From Brachionus manjavacas (lineage: Eukaryota > Rotifera > Eurotatoria > Ploima > Brachionidae): a DNA stretch of 64,000 nt. The stretch spans positions 2,919,001 to 2,983,000 of the forward strand of contig JAHQIY010000011.1 of NCBI GenBank assembly GCA_019054805.1. The letters are read 5' to 3'. The first letter of the stretch is position 1; each line of letters starts with the position of its first letter. Under the pieces are notes generated by a model, which was not told where the DNA came from, made no database searches, and was given only the letters and a program-made list of their open reading frames with translations. Shown here one piece after another: positions 2,000 through 63,583 of this stretch. A program made the translations under genes and the position numbers.

Positions 2000-4900
2000 C
2001 TAATTTCAAAAAAATTACTTTTAAAATAACAATTGAAAATTTAAAAAAGTCTTTTATTAATAATTTTGTATAAACTCTAATATTTTATTTCAAAGGAAAG
2101 TAATTATTTTATTTGCTCAGATTAGTAAATGAAAGTATTATCATTTTTTTTTAATTTGTTTAGTTTAATTACTCTTAATTTTATTCAATAAATTCAAATA
2201 AAATTCAATTAAATTGGCATTTAAAGTAAAGATCAAAAATACCCAGAGGGGTTTTAAAAGTCACAGGTTAAAAATATAGCCAAAGTAAACTGATTATCTA
2301 AATTTAAAAATTTAAATCTTGTTATTCTTATTAAAAAATAATTTAAACAAAGTTTTTTAGAGACATGCGGCAAAGCTGCGCTGGAGCCGAAAAACATTAT
2401 AAAGATCCTTATTTTTAATTCGAACCAAAATTTCATTTTCTTCATCTCTATTGTTTCATAGAAAATAAAATGACTTGGATAATTTTTGGTTAACATTGGT
2501 TCCAAAATCCTCCAAAAATTTTATTAATTAATAAAGAAACGATTTGTGGCACTAATTTTCAAGGAAATTATTTTAAAAGTCTCTGAGACGAAATATGCTA
2601 ACAAAAGCTAAACTTTGAAGGCTATTAAAATTGATTAAAAAAGAAACATTTATCTTTTTTCCTCAGAGGGTCTTGGATCACAAAATTTCAAAATAGAATT
2701 GTCATGTTAACTTCTGTTTTGTTGCGGCACAAAATTATTAAGGAATTTAGAAATGACTTAATCGACTAAAACTTAATTGTCTTTGTTATTAGTAAACAAA
2801 AGAGATAAAGGGACAAACAAAGATAACAAATCAATTTAAGCTTGGTGGACTAATTGATTGTTTTTTTTATAATAAATATTTTATCTATAATACATTGTCA
2901 GAAAAAAAAAAACAGATTACATACAGTATGTCTAGAAAATTTAAAACATTATAAAAAAATAAACAAAAAATTTTTAAGTATTGAAAATTTAAAATAATAA
3001 TCGATTATCATTTAATACAAACTATAACATCTAAAAGAATTATTTTTTAGCTTTCTTTTGATTTAAAAATTGTCAAAAAAAAGCTTCTTATCACTCCAAA
3101 ACCCTTTTTAAAAATAATTAGATAAAATTCATAAAAAAAAACTAGTTTATAAAAGTTTAGAACATTAATTTTTTACTAAAATTTTATCTAAATTTTCCGT
3201 AAAGATAGGTAAAAAAAATAACTCAAGCGCAAAGGTGGCAAATAATTGGGCTGTTGAAGGATAAGACAAAGTCTCAACAAGAAATAGCTGATTTAGTAAG
3301 AGTTTCCAGAAAAAACGTGTTTCCAACAAAGTGTAATTATGAGAAGACTTCGGTGGCCAAAGAATTACCAAGGTCTGGTTGACCTCGAAAGCTTACTAGT
3401 CGAGATAAATCGTACATTTTTAGAAAGTTCAGAATCAATCCTGCAAAAAGCTATAGAAAACTGGCATCTGACTTTAGTTCTAAGTTTCCGAATGTTAGTG
3501 TAAATAAAGACATTGTTAGAAAAATGCTATTCAGGAAAAAAAGACAGGTATAAAAAGCCTCTTTTGACTGTATTTGACCAAAGAACAAAAAAAAAGGACT
3601 GTTAAAGACTGGCCAAAAGTTATTTTCAGCTATAAATCTAATTTGAAGTATTAAACAGGAAATCAAGAGTGTTCGTAAAAAGTTCCGCAAACGAAAAGTA
3701 TCACCCCAAGTTTTGTTTACCAAAGTTATAGAATGGTGGAGGTTTGGTTGGAATTTGAGGATGTATTAATTATAAAGGTACTGGATGCTGCTCCATTTAA
3801 ACAGGCAGAATTAATCAAATTGTGTACATGGACACTCTGGAAAATAACTTATTAACTAAAAATTGATATTTTTTGATCATAGTCAGCATTGGATTTTCAG
3901 CAATATGGGAATAGTTCACATACTGCTCATTCCGTTTGAGATTGGTTTCATAAAAGACAAATATCGATCCTCCCTTGATGCCCAAGATCACCTGATCGTA
4001 TTCCAACAGAGAATTTATGGTCGTATATTTATATACAACAAAATGGTCAATACAAAAATTACATCAGTAGAGCATCCAAAAAGCGTTTTTTTTTTGATGA
4101 ATGGTTGAAGTTCCAAGTGAAATGGTCAAGAAAATGATTGAATCTATGGCAAAATGTCTCGCTGAGTGTATTAAAGCTAAGGGTGGCCATTTTAAATGTT
4201 AAAAAATATTATGTTATAAATTTTGTTGACATTTTTTTGGCTACCTATTTTTTTTTGAAATTTTCATTTCCTATTTTTTGTACTTTTCCGATGAAAAAAT
4301 TATTTTTGTTTTTTTAATTAACCACCCGGCTTCCCAGAAACAAACCTCGCTCGCAAACCATGCAACCAAGGTTGCAAGCACTAATGTGTTACAGCTCACA
4401 CTAATACTACTACTACTACTTCTATTATTTAAGAGGATTATAAATTGTTTATTTTGATTAAAGATTGGAAAATATTAAGAAATGTAAAATTTGTGACACG
4501 CAGTATAAAAAAAAAAAATTTTTATTTGAATAAATATAGCAATATTTTTTTTTTTTTGATATTTTTTATTCTTTTTTAAATATTTTTTTTTAATTAATGA
4601 TTATTTTAATTAAAATATTGATAAAATAACTAGATTAGTGGAAAAAAAACTGAATCTGTGATTGAAAATTTAATTTGTGGTTGTTTTATTAAATTAGTGG
4701 TATAATTTGCTATTTTTTATAGTTTGGGAATATTATTGCTTCAGAGCATTTATGGATTTTTAAATCAAGAAATCAAGGAGGGGACCTGCTTGGAATGAAA
4801 TCCATATCCCTTTTGAAGTAAAAGATTATCACTTATATTTTGTATTTAAGAAAAAAATTCAGCATTATCAGCATATTTTTTACACTTATTGCTCAAACTA

Positions 4901-30954: not shown

Positions 30955-31731
30955 CTAGTAGTTGACTGAATCACATGAAACGTGTCCATAATCAGTGTCG
31001 ATTCGGTCAAATATTTTTTCTATCTGTTTAAAATCATTGTGATTACTCAACATTAAAGTGGACACATAACTTGATTTGTCTTTTCGCGAAAATACCGAGA
31101 ATTTGCACACAAACTTGAATGGTTCCCTGATTTTATTCTTTTCATATTTGTATCCATGTTCGACTGTTTTTTCAGCGTCATGAATAAGAACAATCTCAGC
31201 TCGATTGGCATACTTTTTTGCATCAAAAGCTCGCTGTGTAGCATTGATATGGTCAACCAACACAATTCCCCACAGCTTGTTTTCCTCGATGCCAAGTTTT
31301 TTTTCCACTTGGTCAAAACTTGGCCAACAATAAACTCTATGATTCATTGTTTTGTTGTAGAGCGCAAAATTGTTCACCCAATTGATGTCTGTATCGATTG
31401 AAACAACTTGTTTTTTGGTATCGACTGCCAATTTGTGAAGAAGAGGAGTTGAAAACTTACCCATGCCAAGTTCCAACAAATCTCCAGTGGTCATCAGTGA
31501 TGCCACAACTAGAGGAATAGAATTGCTTCCATATCCATAATTGTAAGGCAAATTAATGTACTTGAGTACCACGTCATTGGCATGCTGTTCTAAATCAATG
31601 TCATTGCTCTCCAAAATTGTATGTGTTCGTAATTTGTTCAAGTTTTGGAAGTTAGACTTTGATTCTTTATAAATTAGAACTAGGAAAATTAAAACAATTG
31701 CACCAAAACATATTATCAAACGATTGTTCAT
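30955..31731 (-). CDS. Membrane-anchored methyltransferase-like protein, copy 1
   Basis: Single exon, 258 residues. I chose the start at 31731 because the identical gene copy at 40.6-41.3 kb diverges just upstream of this ATG; an upstream in-frame ATG at 31821 exists only here. The N-terminus is one membrane helix (residues about 5-22) followed by a stem, so the protein is probably type II. The core reads D-L-L-E-L-G-M-G-K-F-S-T-P-L-L (nucleotide-binding Gly loop), V-V-S-I-D-T-D (acidic strand-2 end), then W-G-I-V-L-V-D-H and I-V-L-I-H-D-A-E. This order fits a class I SAM-dependent methyltransferase fold of an uncharacterised family. The substrate is unknown. Confidence 0.65.
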   Translation of the reverse strand: MNNRLIICFGAIVLIFLVLIYKESKSNFQNLNKLRTHTILESNDIDLEQHANDVVLKYINLPYNYGYGSNSIPLVVASLMTTGDLLELGMGKFSTPLLHKLAVDTKKQVVSIDTDINWVNNFALYNKTMNHRVYCWPSFDQVEKKLGIEENKLWGIVLVDHINATQRAFDAKKYANRAEIVLIHDAEKTVEHGYKYEKNKIREPFKFVCKFSVFSRKDKSSYVSTLMLSNHNDFKQIEKIFDRIDTDYGHVSCDSVNY

Positions 31732-31734
31732 CTT

Positions 31735-32185
31735 GATAAACACAAAAAATATTTTTTCTAAAAAAATTTGGTTATTAGTTGTGATTATCTTTTGATAAAA
31801 GAGAATTTTCAATGTTATCAATCATTTCATTAGTCTTTTGAATTAAATTTTTTATTTTTTAAAATTCTTATGAGTGACTTAATACTCTTAAATATTAATG
31901 TTCTAATAAAATCATATTAATTCGATGATGCTCAAAAATTTTTCACATTTATACTTTCAAAATTTCTTAAATATCATGATTTTCTCAGAAAATCACCATA
32001 ATAACAATTATTAGCAAACTTGCTGAGAGGGATTTAAAATCCATAAAAATGGAAAATTTAATTAACAAGTTCACTTTTTCGAGAAAAATGAATAAATTTA
32101 GTTGTAAATCAGACAAAATTTCTACACTTAAAAGGAAACTAGATATTTGAATCTTCAAGCAACTCACCGATTCTTTGACTGTCAA
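31735..32185. other. AT-rich spacer upstream of methyltransferase-like copy 1
   Basis: Presumed 5' side of the minus-strand gene. No motif recognised. Confidence 0.3.
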
Positions 32186-40565: not shown

Positions 40566-41342
40566 CTAGTAGTTGACTGAATCACATGAAACGTGTCCAT
40601 AATCAGTGTCGATTCGGTCAAATATTTTTTCTATCTGTTTAAAATCATTGTGATTACTCAACATTAAAGTGGACACATAACTTGATTTGTCTTTTCGCGA
40701 AAATACCGAGAATTTGCACACAAACTTGAATGGTTCCCTGATTTTATTCTTTTCATATTTGTATCCATGTTCGACTGTTTTTTCAGCGTCATGAATAAGA
40801 ACAATCTCAGCTCGATTGGCATACTTTTTTGCATCAAAAGCTCGCTGTGTAGCATTGATATGGTCAACCAACACAATTCCCCACAGCTTGTTTTCCTCGA
40901 TGCCAAGTTTTTTTTCCACTTGGTCAAAACTTGGCCAACAATAAACTCTATGATTCATTGTTTTGTTGTAGAGCGCAAAATTGTTCACCCAATTGATGTC
41001 TGTATCGATTGAAACAACTTGTTTTTTGGTATCGACTGCCAATTTGTGAAGAACAGGAGTTGAAAACTTACCCATGCCAAGTTCCAACAAATCTCCAGTG
41101 GTCATCAGTGATGCCACAACTAGAGGAATAGAATTGCTTCCATATCCATAATTGTAAGGCAAATTAATGTACTTGAGTACCACGTCATTGGCATGCTGTT
41201 CTAAATCAATGTCATTGCTCTCCAAAATTGTATGTGTTCGTAATTTGTTCAAGTTTTGGAAGTTAGACTTTGATTCTTTATAAATTAGAACTAGGAAAAT
41301 TAAAACAATTGCACCAAAACAGATTATCAAACGATTGTTCAT
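40566..41342 (-). CDS. Membrane-anchored methyltransferase-like protein, copy 2
   Basis: 258 residues, identical to copy 1 apart from one replacement (Leu to Val in the S-T-P-x-L motif after the Gly loop) and, as far as I could compare, one silent change. The membrane helix, G-M-G loop and H-D-A-E motif are all kept. The duplicated block runs from about 40475 to about 41346, so it includes roughly 90 bp after the stop but essentially no 5' flank. This copy must therefore use a new promoter or be silent. Its open frame is intact, which implies recent duplication or gene conversion. Confidence 0.65.
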   Translation of the reverse strand: MNNRLIICFGAIVLIFLVLIYKESKSNFQNLNKLRTHTILESNDIDLEQHANDVVLKYINLPYNYGYGSNSIPLVVASLMTTGDLLELGMGKFSTPVLHKLAVDTKKQVVSIDTDINWVNNFALYNKTMNHRVYCWPSFDQVEKKLGIEENKLWGIVLVDHINATQRAFDAKKYANRAEIVLIHDAEKTVEHGYKYEKNKIREPFKFVCKFSVFSRKDKSSYVSTLMLSNHNDFKQIEKIFDRIDTDYGHVSCDSVNY

Positions 41343-41429
41343 CTCAAGAAACACTAAAACTAATTGATGTTTTTCAAAGTATAAATGTTATTCTTAAAAA
41401 ATCAAAAAAAATTTTTTAGTGAAATAGAA

Positions 41430-57929: not shown

Positions 57930-58443
57930 ATGTCTAATGATAGAAACGAATTTATTGAATCAAGCAGTAGTGAGTCTGACTCATCTTCTGATATGTCTGA
58001 TAATGAAAGTGTGCCATCTAAAACTGTAGTAAAATGTAAAACTAAATAATTAAAATTGGGTAAGAGTTTTGCAAAGTATGATGAATTTGAAAATGCATAT
58101 AGAAAAATGATAGAAGACACTTATCGACTTTTTAATGTAAGAAATAGCAATTATTATAAAGATAGTCGAGGTAAGGCAACTAACAAACTAAAATAAATAG
58201 AATTCCGATGTAAGAGACATAAGGAATTAGAATCTGTTAAGAGCCGTGGAAATTGTAAAAGACCAGTTCAACGGTATAACGCAAATAGGTGTGAATCAAT
58301 CATAAGAATTAATCATGCTGAAAAACAAGATAAGTATAATATAAAAAAATTAAATTTAACTCATAATCATGAAGTTTTTAAGGAATTGTTTGATCATGAC
58401 GCTAAGAATCGTAAGTTGGACGAAAATGAACAACATTTTTTTT
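57930..58443 (+). pseudogene. FAR1/ZSWIM-like DNA-binding domain of the MULE transposase
   Basis: From ATG 57930: an acidic Ser-rich lead (S-S-S-S-E-S-D-S-S), then after a TAA L-G-K-S-F-A-K-Y-D-E-F-E-N-A-Y and, past a second TAA, F-R-C-K-R-H-K, N-A-N-R-C-E-S-I-I-R-I and L-N-L-T-H-N-H-E-V-F. The C..C..H-N-H arrangement is the WRKY-GCM1-type zinc domain of FAR1/ZSWIM1-3 and MULE transposases. The protein resumes beyond the nested insertions at about 62610 (E-Q-H-E-V-I-N-M-L-K-T-G), where the stretch before the catalytic core begins, then stops at the inner transposon. Confidence 0.65.
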
Positions 58444-58530
58444 TTTTAATAAAATAATTTTAGGGATTAACCCCTAAGACTATCCCGAACGGCTTATCGC
58501 CTTCTTTTCAGTCCTCATGTAATATAAAAA
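58212..58530 (+). repeat. Left copy of the ~320-bp duplication flanking the LINE
   Basis: From TAAGAGACATAAGG to ATGTAATATAAAAA; near-identical to 62235-62554 (I could find at most one base of A-run length difference). It contains the MULE zinc domain codons and most of the SINE-like insertion. Confidence 0.85.
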
Positions 58531-59182
58531 TTGGACAATTAAGTAGGACAATTTGCCATGTTAAGGCTGATTGTCCTACTTATAGAGAACGCTCTTCACT
58601 GGTATGCCGAATTTGTCAAAAAAAAGGACACTCAACCGAAGAACACACTACAGCAAACATGATCCGTGACGGTGATTTTGACAAAATGAACACAGAAGAT
58701 GACCTTGATCGTGTAGGAGCTGAAGTAATCTGCCAAAAAACAAACGAAAATCCTCTATCTGGTTTCTTCTCTATCGAGGAAATCGAGAAGTCGTTTGTTG
58801 AAGTGAACAAAATGATAACTTGTGATAATACAAGTTACAAGCGAAACATTAATGCACTTGATAAAGCGGTAACTGACGATACCAACTCGAAAAATGGCCG
58901 CCTGAGTATCGGACGTGGTTTTAAGAATTTGCAATATAATGTTAATATCCAAAACAATGGTAACTCAGGTATTCCAAATACAACTAAGCAAACAGAACAT
59001 AAAAATGAAATCACAAAAATTCCAATTTCAAAGACAAAAACTGATCAAAAACAAGCCAATACACAACTCGCACTACAAAATGAACATCCTAAACAAAATC
59101 CGACAAAAACTCAAACACAGCAGTCAAAAATAGATGAAAAAAACAAAAACAGGAGATTTTCTTTCGCAGTCAAACCTACGTA
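58531..59182 (+). pseudogene. LINE ORF1, C-terminal part
   Basis: The frame starts at the insertion edge with C-H-V-K-A-D-C-P (rest of a zinc knuckle), then C-R-I-C-Q-K-K-G-H-S-T-E-E-H, a second knuckle with C-x2-C-x4-H-x4-H spacing. A long Asn/Lys/Gln/Thr-rich C-terminus ends at TAG 59180-59182. ORF1 proteins bind the LINE RNA. The N-terminal half is absent because of 5' truncation. Confidence 0.7.
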
Positions 59183-59238
59183 GAAAGTCACTCATTCAAT
59201 CCATAGATCTACGGCTCAATCAGCATCACAAAATAAAA

Positions 59239-61990
59239 ATGAACAAAAAAAAATCAACAACTTTATCAAAAAAAAGGTTAGTAATTACACATTGGAACTG
59301 TTCTCATCTTCCCAGTAGAGTGTTACTATTGCAAAATTTTTTGGCTCAGAATTCCCCAGATATTTTGTTACTAAATGAAATAAAAATAGATGCAAATGAA
59401 GAAAATATTTTTTTGAACTACAAAAATTACCTATTAATAATCAAACCTAGAAATAAATATTGAGGCGGTGTAGCAATTTTAGTTAAGGAGGGACTCGATT
59501 TTGCTCAAGACTTATCATTTGAAAACTTCTCAGCAGAGCTACTTTGCATCAAAATAAAAATAAAAAATGACTCCTTGTTTATCTTTAGCCTATACAACCC
59601 ACCTAATAAGATTCTAAATTTTGAGCTTTTTGAACAAATCAGTAAAAACTGTAAAAACTTTATTCTTGGCGGTGATTTAAACGCTAAGTCCAAGCAAATA
59701 GGAAGTTTTGGTCAAAACGAAAATGGAAATATTTTAGAAAATATAATAAATAAGTTAAACATGTCAACTATAAATGACAATTCACCCACTTTTAACATAT
59801 TTAATAGAGAATACTATGAATTACTTGATATATTTTTAGTCTCATCCGATCTCTTAGACAAAATCAGTGATTTTAGGGTTTTATCAAAACATGATATGAC
59901 AAGTGTTCATTTCCCTATTGAAGCTTGCATATCAATTGAGCATTTTATGACTTCCGAATTGATTTCAAGAAGGTTAAATTTCAAAAAAGCAAATTGGTCA
60001 TATTTTCAAGAAATTCTTAGTGTTCCGATCTTAAACCCAGATAGTGTTGACGACTATAATAATATAATCTCAAAAAAAAAATAATAAGTGCTGCCCATAA
60101 AAGCATCCCATTACAGTCAGGGAAAATATATAAAACTACCCTACCGCATGAAATTGTGAACTTAATAAAAGAACGCAGGAAAACCAGGAGGTATTTTCAA
60201 AGAACTCGCTCCCAATTAGCAAAGCAAAAATTCAACTTTCTAACTTCTCAGTTAAAAATCTCTCTAAAAAAATTTTGGGACAAAAATTGGTCTGACTTTA
60301 TCGATAAAATGGGCAAGAATCCCTTATCCAGCAGGCCTTTCTGGAAAAAAATTAATAAATTCAGATCAAAAAAAAGTTCAAAACTTATCCCAACCTTACT
60401 GGCAAATAATCAAGAACTAAGCACTGATAGTGAAAAAGGAAAATTCTTTTGAGAATTCTTGTCCTTAACTTTTAGTCCCAATTCTGATTTAATTAATAAT
60501 AATACAGACAGTGAGATAACTGATTTTAACTCGAACTTCTTTAAAAGCCACAAATCATTCATAATTAATGAACCTATAAGTCTAAAAGAGATCAATGTAG
60601 CTATCAGGAAATTAAAAGGAGAAGGGGCATCAGGACCTGACAAAATTCAAAATATCATGTTAAAAAATTTACCACGAACTTGTCTTCTTGATATTAAGGA
60701 ACTCTTCAACCGAAGTATTCTTCAGGCTAGAATTCCCAAAGAATGGAAAACAGCTTTCATAACCATGATTCCTAAAAAATCCTCAGCATTAAATGACCCA
60801 ACTAACTATAGACCAATAAGCATGACAAGCTGTCTTGGTAAGCTCCTAGAGCGGATTATCTACATTAGAATATATAATCACCTAGAAAAGAATTCATTGT
60901 TAATTCAAGAGCAATCAGGCTTCAGAAAATATCGACGAACCGCCGACAATCTTATTTTCTTGATTCAAAAAATTTCTGAATCATTCAATAGAAAGAAAAA
61001 AGTCAATGCCTTATTTTTTGATATCTCAAAAGCTTTTGATAGGGTGTGGCATTACGGATTAATTTATAAACTAATTAAAATGAACTTGCCTGACTATCTT
61101 ATCCACTGGATAAAATCATTTCTTGATTCCAGATCATTCAAAGTAAATGTAAATGGTCATATAAGTGATGAATATTTAATAACTGCAGGTGTCCCCCAAG
61201 GTTCAGTAATTAGTCCTCTTCTGTTCAGTATATTCATTAATGATATTCCAAAGAGAAATAAAACTAATAGTGAATACTCCCTCTTATTTGCAGATGATCT
61301 AGTGACTTTTTTTATTTATAAAAAAAGGGTAATCTAGAAAATAAGATAAACAAATATCTAAAAGAACTAGAAAAATGGCTCTGCAAGTGGAAAATGAAAT
61401 TATCATTAGAGAAGTCTTGCTTTATGGTATTTTCCAAGTATAGTAAAGAAAATTCAAATCTTAACTTAGAGATATATGGGAATAAACTCGAAAGTCAGAA
61501 AAATGTAAAATTTCTTGGCATTAAGTTTGACCCAAAATTAACCTTTAACCCTATGATTGAAGATATAAAAAAACGCTGCAACTCAAGATTAAATTTAATT
61601 AAAATTTTATCAAACAAAAAATGGGGCTTAAATACTTATACATTAAGTAATCTCTACAAATCATTAATAGGCTCGATATTAGACTATTCATTTCCCTGTC
61701 TAAACTTATTTTCAGAATCAAACTTTAAAAGAATTCAGGCTATTAAAAACTCAGCAGTTAGATTCATTCTCAAACTAAAATATGATACACCCTCTGACAT
61801 ATTACATAATGAGGCCTTTGATAAACTAGAACTGTTAAAAGTCTCTAACCGACTTTTTGAGTTGGCTGAGAGATACGTTGGAGTAGGACTGAGCCATTCT
61901 GTTCCATTAGTAACCAGACTGGTCGAGGAGTACACGAAGGGTTTCGAATCAAGATTCATCGAATACCCAACTCCACTGTGTAATTGCTAA
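59239..61990 (+). pseudogene. LINE ORF2: endonuclease and reverse transcriptase
   Basis: The endonuclease shows I-T-H-W-N-C, L-L-L-N-E-I-K (catalytic Glu), G-G-D-L-N-A-K and L-D-I-F-L-V, ending S-V-H-F-P-I. The reverse transcriptase has Y-R-P-I-S-M-T-S, F-F-D-I-S-K-A-F-D-R-V-W, G-V-P-Q-G-S-V-I-S-P-L-L-F and L-L-F-A-D-D-L-V. The C-terminal region has F-L-G-I-K-F-D and S-L-I-G-S-I-L-D-Y. Lesions: TGA at 59461-59463, a frame change in the A run near 60070, TGA at 60450-60452 and a frame change in the A run near 61320. Two of the four are in homopolymers and could be sequence errors. The F-A-D-D box and domain order place it near the jockey/CR1 group. Confidence 0.85.
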
Positions 61991-62234
61991 CTTACTATTT
62001 CTTCTTTTTTTCCTGAAACTTGAACTATTTAAACATGTGCCACATGAAACAATCTTTTCCAATTTATGTCTTTTCAACTTTAATTTTTTATTAGCTTATT
62101 TACTCTATTTTTTTTTTTTTTTTTTTTATCTAATTTTATTAACTTTAATTTTATTCTTATTTTGTTTTTTTTTTTTATTTTATTTTTTTAATTTATTCTG
62201 AAGGAGCTTTAGCTCGGTACAGATAACAAATAAA

Positions 62235-62554
62235 TAAGAGACATAAGGAATTAGAATCTGTTAAGAGCCGTGGAAATTGTAAAAGACCAGTTCAACGGTA
62301 TAACGCAAATAGGTGTGAATCAATCATAAGAATTAATCATGCTGAAAAACAAGATAAGTATAATATAAAAAAATTAAATTTAACTCATAATCATGAAGTT
62401 TTTAAGGAATTGTTTGATCATGACGCTAAGAATCGTAAGTTGGACGAAAATGAACAACATTTTTTTTTTTTAATAAAATAATTTTAGGGATTAACCCCTA
62501 AGACTATCCCGAACGGCTTATCGCCTTCTTTTCAGTCCTCATGTAATATAAAAA
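62235..62554 (+). repeat. Right copy of the ~320-bp duplication flanking the LINE
   Basis: Second copy of 58212-58530, beginning directly at the LINE's (AAAT)n tail and continuing into the rest of the SINE-like element. Confidence 0.85.
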
Positions 62555-62608
62555 TAGAAAATTTAAAAATAGTAATTAGGTTAAATATAAAAATGATGTA
62601 TACAAAAA
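62462..62608 (-). mobile_element. Small SINE-like retroinsertion in the MULE
   Basis: Read on the minus strand it has a G+C-rich block (GAGGACTGAAAAGAAGG, then GATAGTCTTAGGGGTTAAT) and ends in poly(A). The 14-bp sequence AAAATGAACAACAT stands on both sides (about 62448-62461 and 62609-62622), a normal retroposition target duplication, and rejoining the flanks restores the MULE reading frame. It has no A/B boxes that I can see, so it may be a truncated LINE tail instead. Confidence 0.6.
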
Positions 62609-62705
62609 AATGAACAACATGAAGTTATCAATATGTTAAAAACTGGCTCAAAAGTAGCCAAAGTAGCGGAGCACATGGAAAATAAAAGTAATACATATAA
62701 GTTTG

Positions 62706-63447
62706 GGGTCTTATAAACCTGACGATCAGTGTTCGTTACATTTCACGAACAGTCAATTTGACGACCAGGTAAATTAATTACTGTTCGTAAAAAAAAAAGA
62801 ACTGATCGTGAAAATTTTTACCTGGACGAAAAAATAAATTATCAAATTAATTAATATTTATTTCTAAATGAAAAATTAAAGTAGTTTTCTATATTTTTTT
62901 CGAAATTTCGAGCAAATTAGTTTAATTAAAAATTTCGTTTATTCGTCTTATTCTTGATTTTTTTTCGGACGGCCTCTAGTTCTTTCAATTGGGATATTAA
63001 TTACGTCTTCAACATGATTGTCTCTAGCAACACTTTCCAATCTTATACTAGATAATTTCTGGCTTAATTCATCGCATTCATAAGGAACAATTGAAGAAAA
63101 ATAAATAGTTAACTTTTTAAATCGAGTGCCCTTAGTTGCGTGCTTTAAGCAATGTAAATCGCAAAGTTCATGTATTATTTTACGTTGTTTTGAACTTAGA
63201 CAACTCCTAAAAGTAAAACCGTTTTACTTGAAAGGCTTTCAAATTCTCAACTTTTAATTTGAGTTATAATGTCTTTAATTGATGAAATAAATGAATAAAA
63301 CTTTGATTTGCTTTTTATTTACAATTTTTTTTTCACTGATCATACGAATACACACCTGACGATCAGATAAATTAATTAATTTACCTGGTCGTCAAATTGA
63401 CTGTTCGTGAAATGTAATGAACACTGATCGTCAGGTTTATAAGACCC
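62706..63447. mobile_element. TIR DNA transposon with R3H exon
   Basis: Inverted ends of about 75 bp start GGGTCTTATAAACCTGACG and include TTTCACGAACAGTCAATTTG. The flanks TAAGTTTG (left, 62698-62705) and TAAATTTG (right, 63448-63455) look like an 8-bp target duplication with one change, pointing to hAT- or P-type insertion. The element is 742 bp with a coding relic on the minus strand. Confidence 0.7.
62948..63206 (-). pseudogene. R3H-domain exon with GRPKK tail
   Basis: After a TTTTAG acceptor the frame gives C-L-S-S-K-Q-R-K-I-I-H-E-L-C and L-K-H-A-T-K-G-T-R-F-K-K-L-T-I-Y-F. This is the R3H fold (Arg-x3-His spacing), which binds single-stranded nucleic acid. It closes with R-T-R-G-R-P-K-K-N-Q-E before TAA, an AT-hook-like end common in Mutator-like and other transposases. 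The frame is unbroken for 86 codons. It is either the last exon of a transposase shortened to a MITE-like element or a captured host exon. Confidence 0.6.
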
Positions 63448-63583
63448 TAAATTTGTCTTTTTCCTTTAATTCTGTTTAAAAAAAAATTTAAAAAACTAGG
63501 TTTTCCTAGGCTACCTGCGCCTATAAATAGGGCTACTTTTTTTGGCTACGTGCACCTATAACTAGGTTTCCGCATTCATATCC

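Follow-up and report, generated by a model that had tools for sequence, protein, structure and literature searches.

A 321-bp target-site duplication at a LINE insertion in the rotifer Brachionus manjavacas: an uncommon but documented outcome of retrotransposition

Background

Insertion of a LINE usually duplicates about a dozen bases of the target site, and long target-site duplications (TSDs) are a feature of Rte-1 of C. elegans. The zebrafish LINE ZfL2-2, inserted into the genome of wild-type DT40 cells, yielded one long TSD, of 1,228 bp, among 25 insertions; the cited part of that report (PMC2666801) states a model in which the length of the TSD is determined by the position of second-strand cleavage, and favors template jumping as the origin of the extra 5' nucleotides of ZfL2-2 insertions. 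For human L1, the cited part of another report (PMC5223499) puts the share of events with TSDs longer than 100 bp at no more than 10% in HeLa cells and at 3 of 9 in complemented cells. It describes large TSDs, with a median of 1,495 bp, as the rule when cells are NER-deficient, and suggests that the second-strand break of L1 may be an unrelated nick at a distal position. L1 TSDs of up to several hundred nucleotides are mentioned in the cited part of a third report (PMC1291365).

Here we describe a natural LINE insertion that is flanked by a 321-bp duplication. It is located in a stretch of 64,000 nucleotides, hereinafter the window (C11:2919001-2983000 of the 114-Mb, 61-contig assembly); coordinates without a contig refer to the window. 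The long TSDs of ZfL2-2, as presented in the cited part of PMC2666801, resemble this case in that a duplication far above 20 bp occurs in a small minority of the insertions and in that extra nucleotides occur at 5' junctions, but they come from an engineered assay with another LINE in chicken cells. Similarly, TSDs longer than 100 bp are a minority both for human L1 (up to 10% in HeLa cells) and for the present LINE, but those of L1 predominate in NER-deficient cells only, within the scope of the cited part of PMC5223499, compared to 2 of the 60 copies in this genome. The 321-bp TSD is a real, uncommon but documented outcome of LINE insertion and, on present evidence, represents neither a new mechanism nor a property of the LINE family. 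The first-pass annotation of this DNA described the duplication as exceptionally long, which is apt inasmuch as it is far above the readable TSDs of the other copies in this genome but not with respect to LINEs at large, given that rare TSDs of hundreds of base pairs to more than 1 kb are documented for ZfL2-2 and human L1 (cited parts of PMC2666801 and PMC5223499).

Results and discussion

Structure of the insertion

Alignment of the two copies of the repeat, 58211-58531 and 62235-62555 (both on the plus strand, with a spacing of 4,024), revealed identity at 321 of the 321 positions, and the bases immediately outside the copies differ (G versus A before the repeat and T versus A after it). 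The left copy ends at the start of the insert, which consists of a 20-nt filler followed by the LINE from position 58552, and the right copy begins directly past the LINE tail, ...ACAAATAAA, which is of the (AAAT)n type. The first-pass annotation had placed a near-identical direct repeat of about 320 bp at 58212-62554, which is within 1 bp at each end, and had correctly noted that the repeat starts exactly at the tail; the first bases of the right copy, TAA, could also be LINE tail. When the flanks of LINE copies were compared, matches of at least 25 bp were detected in 16 of the 61 real left/right pairs and in 13 of the 58 mismatched pairs, but none of the 58 mismatched pairs gave such a match that extends from the tail at one end to the 5' end of the LINE at the other, so that chance is not an issue for the 321-bp repeat.

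The element between the copies (58552-62234, plus strand) is a 5'-truncated LINE in which the APE endonuclease and reverse transcriptase are in broken reading frames, and which ends in an (AAAT)n-type tail. Comparison with Pfam identified an apurinic-like endonuclease domain (PF14529, 58.8 bits, with a cut-off of 27.4) and a reverse transcriptase of the non-LTR kind (PF00078, 121.7 bits), for which the best matches among solved structures are R2 and human LINE-1 ORF2. The truncation is apparent from the copy L004, which extends further upstream in the LINE sequence than 58552; the copies have the 3' end and the tail in common, are truncated at many variable points at the 5' end, and are devoid of LTRs. 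The window element is an APE-type non-LTR retrotransposon (LINE), and the TSD expected of this class is present, 321 bp in length and with an ancestral site that can be rebuilt from paralogs. Two stop codons are private to the window LINE, one in comparison with 3 and the other in comparison with 10 further aligned copies. The Rfam search yielded no matches at gathering scores, and searches for splice-leader sequences, nematode SL1 (exact) and the rotifer SL (with up to 1 mismatch), yielded 0 matches each.

The 20-nt filler at the 5' junction of the LINE (58532-58551, plus strand) is, in part, an inverted copy of the nearby LINE: the 13 nt at 58540-58552 are the reverse complement of the LINE bases 58570-58582, compared to a maximum of 8 in 32 control positions. 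This templated filler shows some template switching at the 5' junction of the window LINE. A direct match of 11 nt, with a control maximum of 8, was detected at the 5' junction of L006. Inspection by eye identified CTTGAGCAAAATCGAG, upstream of the LINE in L005, as the reverse complement of window positions 59494-59509, but in the scripted junction test, which covered the first 100 bases of the copy only, L005 scored 9, with a control maximum of 12. No excess of junction templates was apparent in the remaining seven of the ten tested copies, including L008.

Reconstruction of the target site

We denote the duplicated sequence X, and the host sequences to the left and to the right of it A and B, respectively. 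A model of the empty site that consisted of the left flank, one X and the right flank was used for a search of the genome, and the best 40 of 168 candidates were scored. Among the matches listed, nine loci match the first 326 bases of the model with 92-96% identity, across the left boundary of X, and in all nine, the part of the model from base 470-473 on follows directly in the genome; the LINE, a second X and the SINE-like insert are absent from all nine of these paralogs, which match the whole left stretch. Three further loci match a shorter left part, short of the left boundary, with the same continuation and a single copy, and four fetched paralogs (L079-L082) confirm the uninterrupted left junction base by base. 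On the other side, at least 10 copies of the SINE-like insert cross the right boundary of X, and both of those that were fetched (L083 and L084) are unbroken through it. Because the ancestral A-X junction is unbroken in the paralogs and the ancestral X-B junction is unbroken in the copies of the insert, A-X-B became A-X-LINE-X-B, that is, the repeat is a true long TSD; in full, the present structure is A-X-filler-LINE-tail-X-B. These comparisons indicate that the 321-bp repeat is pre-existing host DNA that was duplicated at LINE insertion, and the earlier assignment of the repeat to the host site rather than to the LINE is borne out by paralogs on both sides. Both sides of the empty site could be rebuilt because the LINE landed in nested repeats, and the window insertion is a clean natural example of a long TSD.

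The duplicated segment includes 226 bp of a multi-copy FAR1/MULE-like sequence (58211-58436 and, again, 62235-62460, plus strand), followed by 95 bp of an older poly-A retroelement insert (58437-58531, minus strand). The insert is complete at 62461-62606 (minus strand), where it spans the right end of the duplication; it aligns with L083 and L084 and is absent from the MULE-like paralogs. It carries its own 14-bp TSD, AAAATGAACAACAT, at 58423-58436 and 62607-62620 (plus strand), which is a single copy in the four paralogs read. The similarity between L083 and L084 continues past the point at which the window copy stops, so that the insert, which the first-pass annotation detected and called SINE-like, looks more like, and probably is, a 5'-truncated copy of a longer retroelement. 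The name MULE for the target sequence also comes from the earlier annotation, in which it was labeled MULE coding sequence; this label rests on a sub-threshold match to the FAR1 DNA-binding domain, the only domain seen (21.3 bits, with a cut-off of 28.1), and on the multi-copy paralogs. The nesting indicates the order of events, in which the poly-A retroelement inserted into the multi-copy FAR1/MULE-like sequence and the LINE subsequently inserted into the retroelement insert, with the 321-bp duplication.

Target-site duplications in other copies of the LINE

The genome search for copies of the LINE produced 4,239 candidates, of which the best 40 were scored; in this set, the window subfamily is represented by 14 other fetched copies with 92-99% identity (L002-L014 and L027), and the copies of the sister LINE are about 72-77% identical. 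When up to 2 mismatches are allowed, the 3'-end pattern of the LINE matches the genome 1,649 times and the reversed control 0 times; the exact window-type 3' end has 18 matches. Flanks were compared for 71 fetched copies in which the 3' end is intact (61 plus 10, with L001-L030 compared twice), a non-random sample made up of the best-scoring copies, all 18 exact window-type 3' ends, and the first-listed matches on C1 and C2. Exclusion of the 11 copies in which the LINE 5' end is uncertain or outside the stretch (L018, L019, L021, L024, L025, L026, L046, L047, L052, L065 and L066) yielded 60 informative copies. The compared right flanks were 600 bp long (1,500 bp for L001-L030) and some of the left flanks only 106-170 bp, so that much longer TSDs could be missed in this survey.

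A TSD longer than 100 bp that is anchored at both LINE ends was identified in 2 of the 60 copies (95% interval, 0.4-11.5%), namely, the window copy and L008, a rate no different from the published 1 of 25 for ZfL2-2 (P = 1.0). Both fall within the set of 19 copies that have the window-type 3' end, compared to none of the 41 others (Fisher P = 0.097); this set comprises the 18 exact ends and L005, and includes some short copies that cannot be assigned to the window subfamily with clarity. A regularly long-TSD family would carry TSDs of over 100 bp at most of its insertions; the counts do not establish long duplications as a property of this family, a possibility raised in the first-pass annotation. 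Nor does it seem probable that the window subfamily itself, rather than chance, is responsible through a proneness to distant second-strand breaks, in which case the near-equal lengths (321 bp and 316/300 bp) could reflect a preferred spacing set by proteins or chromatin. In a few percent of the copies examined, then, LINE insertion in a natural genome can duplicate hundreds of host bases, and transposon annotation should accordingly look beyond short TSDs.

The second long TSD, that of L008 (C1:7357205-7359756), is 316 bp long on the left and 300 bp on the right, and its copies differ by one 16-bp indel and four mismatches and are otherwise identical. L008 is similar to the window copy in its LINE sequence (~97-98% identity), its tail and the presence of a ~300-bp duplication at both LINE ends, but it has an unrelated target and non-identical flank copies; the target sequence was found in no other place in the genome among the matches listed. 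The differences between the copies (positions 441-757 and 3309-3608 of the locus) are a 16-bp deletion between short repeats and four T/A changes around a T run, all within one stretch, as if from slippage during fill-in.

At first sight, L013 (C3:577089-581746) is a third long TSD, of 175 bp with 98.9% identity, but it was kept out of the 60: part of the 92 bp between the LINE and the right copy of the repeat is contiguous with the repeat in the paralog C4:7597991-7598274, and the start of the repeat is the same in the other paralogs, or shifted by no more than 2 bp, like the end of an element. The right-hand unit of the repeat occurs again ~2,060 bp downstream, which indicates that the locus is rearranged. 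In L044, an 80.6% match over 62 bp lies 36 and ~45 bp off the LINE ends and was not counted. TSDs exceeding the fetched flanks in length were sought with 150-bp pieces of the left and right flanks of 8 window-family copies (L003, L005, L006, L007, L010, L011, L012 and L014) and 8 full-length sisters; among the matches listed for these 16 copies (the best 40 of 66, 280, 513 and 1,768), there is no near-identical direct copy across the LINE. The left flank of L020 recurs 7.5 kb upstream (99%), both flanks of L011 recur in inverted orientation 0.5-2 kb upstream (94-98%), and the right flank of L005 holds tandem repeats, in each case without a direct repeat across the LINE.

With regard to short TSDs, exact junction matches of at least 9 bp are present in 9 of 51 copies, compared to 4.4% of 296 mismatched pairs, and exact flank matches of at least 7 bp in 23 of the 51 real pairs, compared to 23% of the mismatched ones; in an AT-rich genome, short exact flank matches are weak evidence of a TSD. 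Of the nine copies, the tail-like L055 and L023, which requires a filler, were not relied on; L008 ranks low in this test because its copies are not exact. Readable TSDs were identified in L033 (~12 bp), L035 (11 bp), L037 (10 bp) and L043 (~12 bp) and, among copies nested in older LINEs, in L056 (9-10 bp) and L034 (5 bp); paralogous empty sites show a TSD of 6 bp for L006 and a nearly blunt insertion for L016. In most of the remaining copies, the junction match does not exceed 8 bp or is absent, which is indistinguishable from chance. The copy L056 (C9:910989-913920), inside an older LINE, retains only ~35-41 nt of the LINE 3' end, an extreme 5' truncation.

Mechanism of insertion

The best explanation of the window structure is target-primed reverse transcription in which the break in the second strand lies 321 nt downstream of that in the first, an explanation to which we assign a probability of roughly three in four. 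We infer the nicks, the distant second break, the fill-in and their timing from the structure of the locus. The bottom strand would have been nicked between CCGATG and TAAGAGAC, and the LINE RNA would have been copied from this nick, starting in the (AAAT)n tail, possibly at a TAA shared with the target. The top strand would have been broken 321 nt downstream, within the older retroelement insert, perhaps by an unrelated nick. An early halt of the cDNA would account for the 5' truncation, and joining of the cDNA to the top-strand end via the ~20-nt filler, partly copied in inverted orientation from the nearby LINE, followed by fill-in of both 321-nt single strands, would produce the two copies of X. 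With 321 bp between the two nicks, the ends do not come apart by themselves, and unwinding or strand displacement has to be assumed. The exact repeat anchored at the LINE ends, the ancestral junctions, the family hallmarks, the readable short TSDs, L008 and the published cases all support the target-primed model. What counts against it is that private substitutions occupy 15 of the 2,284 comparable columns of the LINE, compared to no differences between the 321-bp flanks; under an equal clock, ~4.2 flank differences are expected versus 0 observed (P about 0.015). Therefore, source-copy differences, copying errors or homogenized flanks have to be assumed, and we take the private changes in the LINE to come mostly from the source copy or from reverse transcription, with homogenization of the flanks as a possible factor.

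An identical end product is also expected from insertion coupled to replication or repair, in which the cDNA is primed at one end and linked to a sister chromatid or fork that is broken 321 bp further along, so that X is duplicated by the choice of template, without distant cuts and fill-in. The template switching in the 5' filler is compatible with this route, but nothing in the sequence requires it, and the position of the second cut is all that the model of TSD length in the cited part of PMC2666801 calls for; we consider such an insertion unlikely. Of the two mechanisms proposed in the first-pass annotation, widely spaced breaks with long fill-in fit best; copying of the flank by break repair or template switching is less likely, and some template switching is evident in the templated filler at the 5' junction. 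The final structure would be the same if a 321-bp tandem duplication already existed and the LINE inserted at its junction, a scenario that is highly improbable considering that X is a single copy in all nine paralogs matching the whole left stretch and in the three partial ones, among the matches listed, and that the two ends of the LINE would have to coincide precisely with the tandem junction, in the window and again in L008. Duplication of one flank copy by misassembly, which would likewise give identical copies, is hardly credible at all: the boundaries of the repeat coincide with the LINE ends, the contigs are up to 12.1 Mb long, and the independent copies in L008 differ by the 16-bp indel and four bases. 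By itself, the window case adds little on the mechanism.

Additional observations

In the window, the near-identical open reading frames at 30955-31821 and 40566-41387 (both on the minus strand; 288 and 273 amino acids, respectively), ~9.6 kb apart, are a recent gene duplication. An 82-bp inverted repeat with 96% complementarity is located at 62699-62780 and 63373-63454; a related sequence is the target of L006, which implies that the inverted repeat belongs to a repeat family. The 3' junctions of L015 (right flank at C2:7425942 onward) and L073 (right flank at C2:3662-3664 kb) are at the same target, GGTCCTTTCAAAATAACTTAACC; these are a full-length and a 5'-truncated LINE, respectively, that either inserted at the same point in a repeat or were co-amplified. 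Inspection of the right flanks by eye places the LINEs L012, L015 and L016 just upstream of apparent start codons in other repeats, which may be those of transposase genes.
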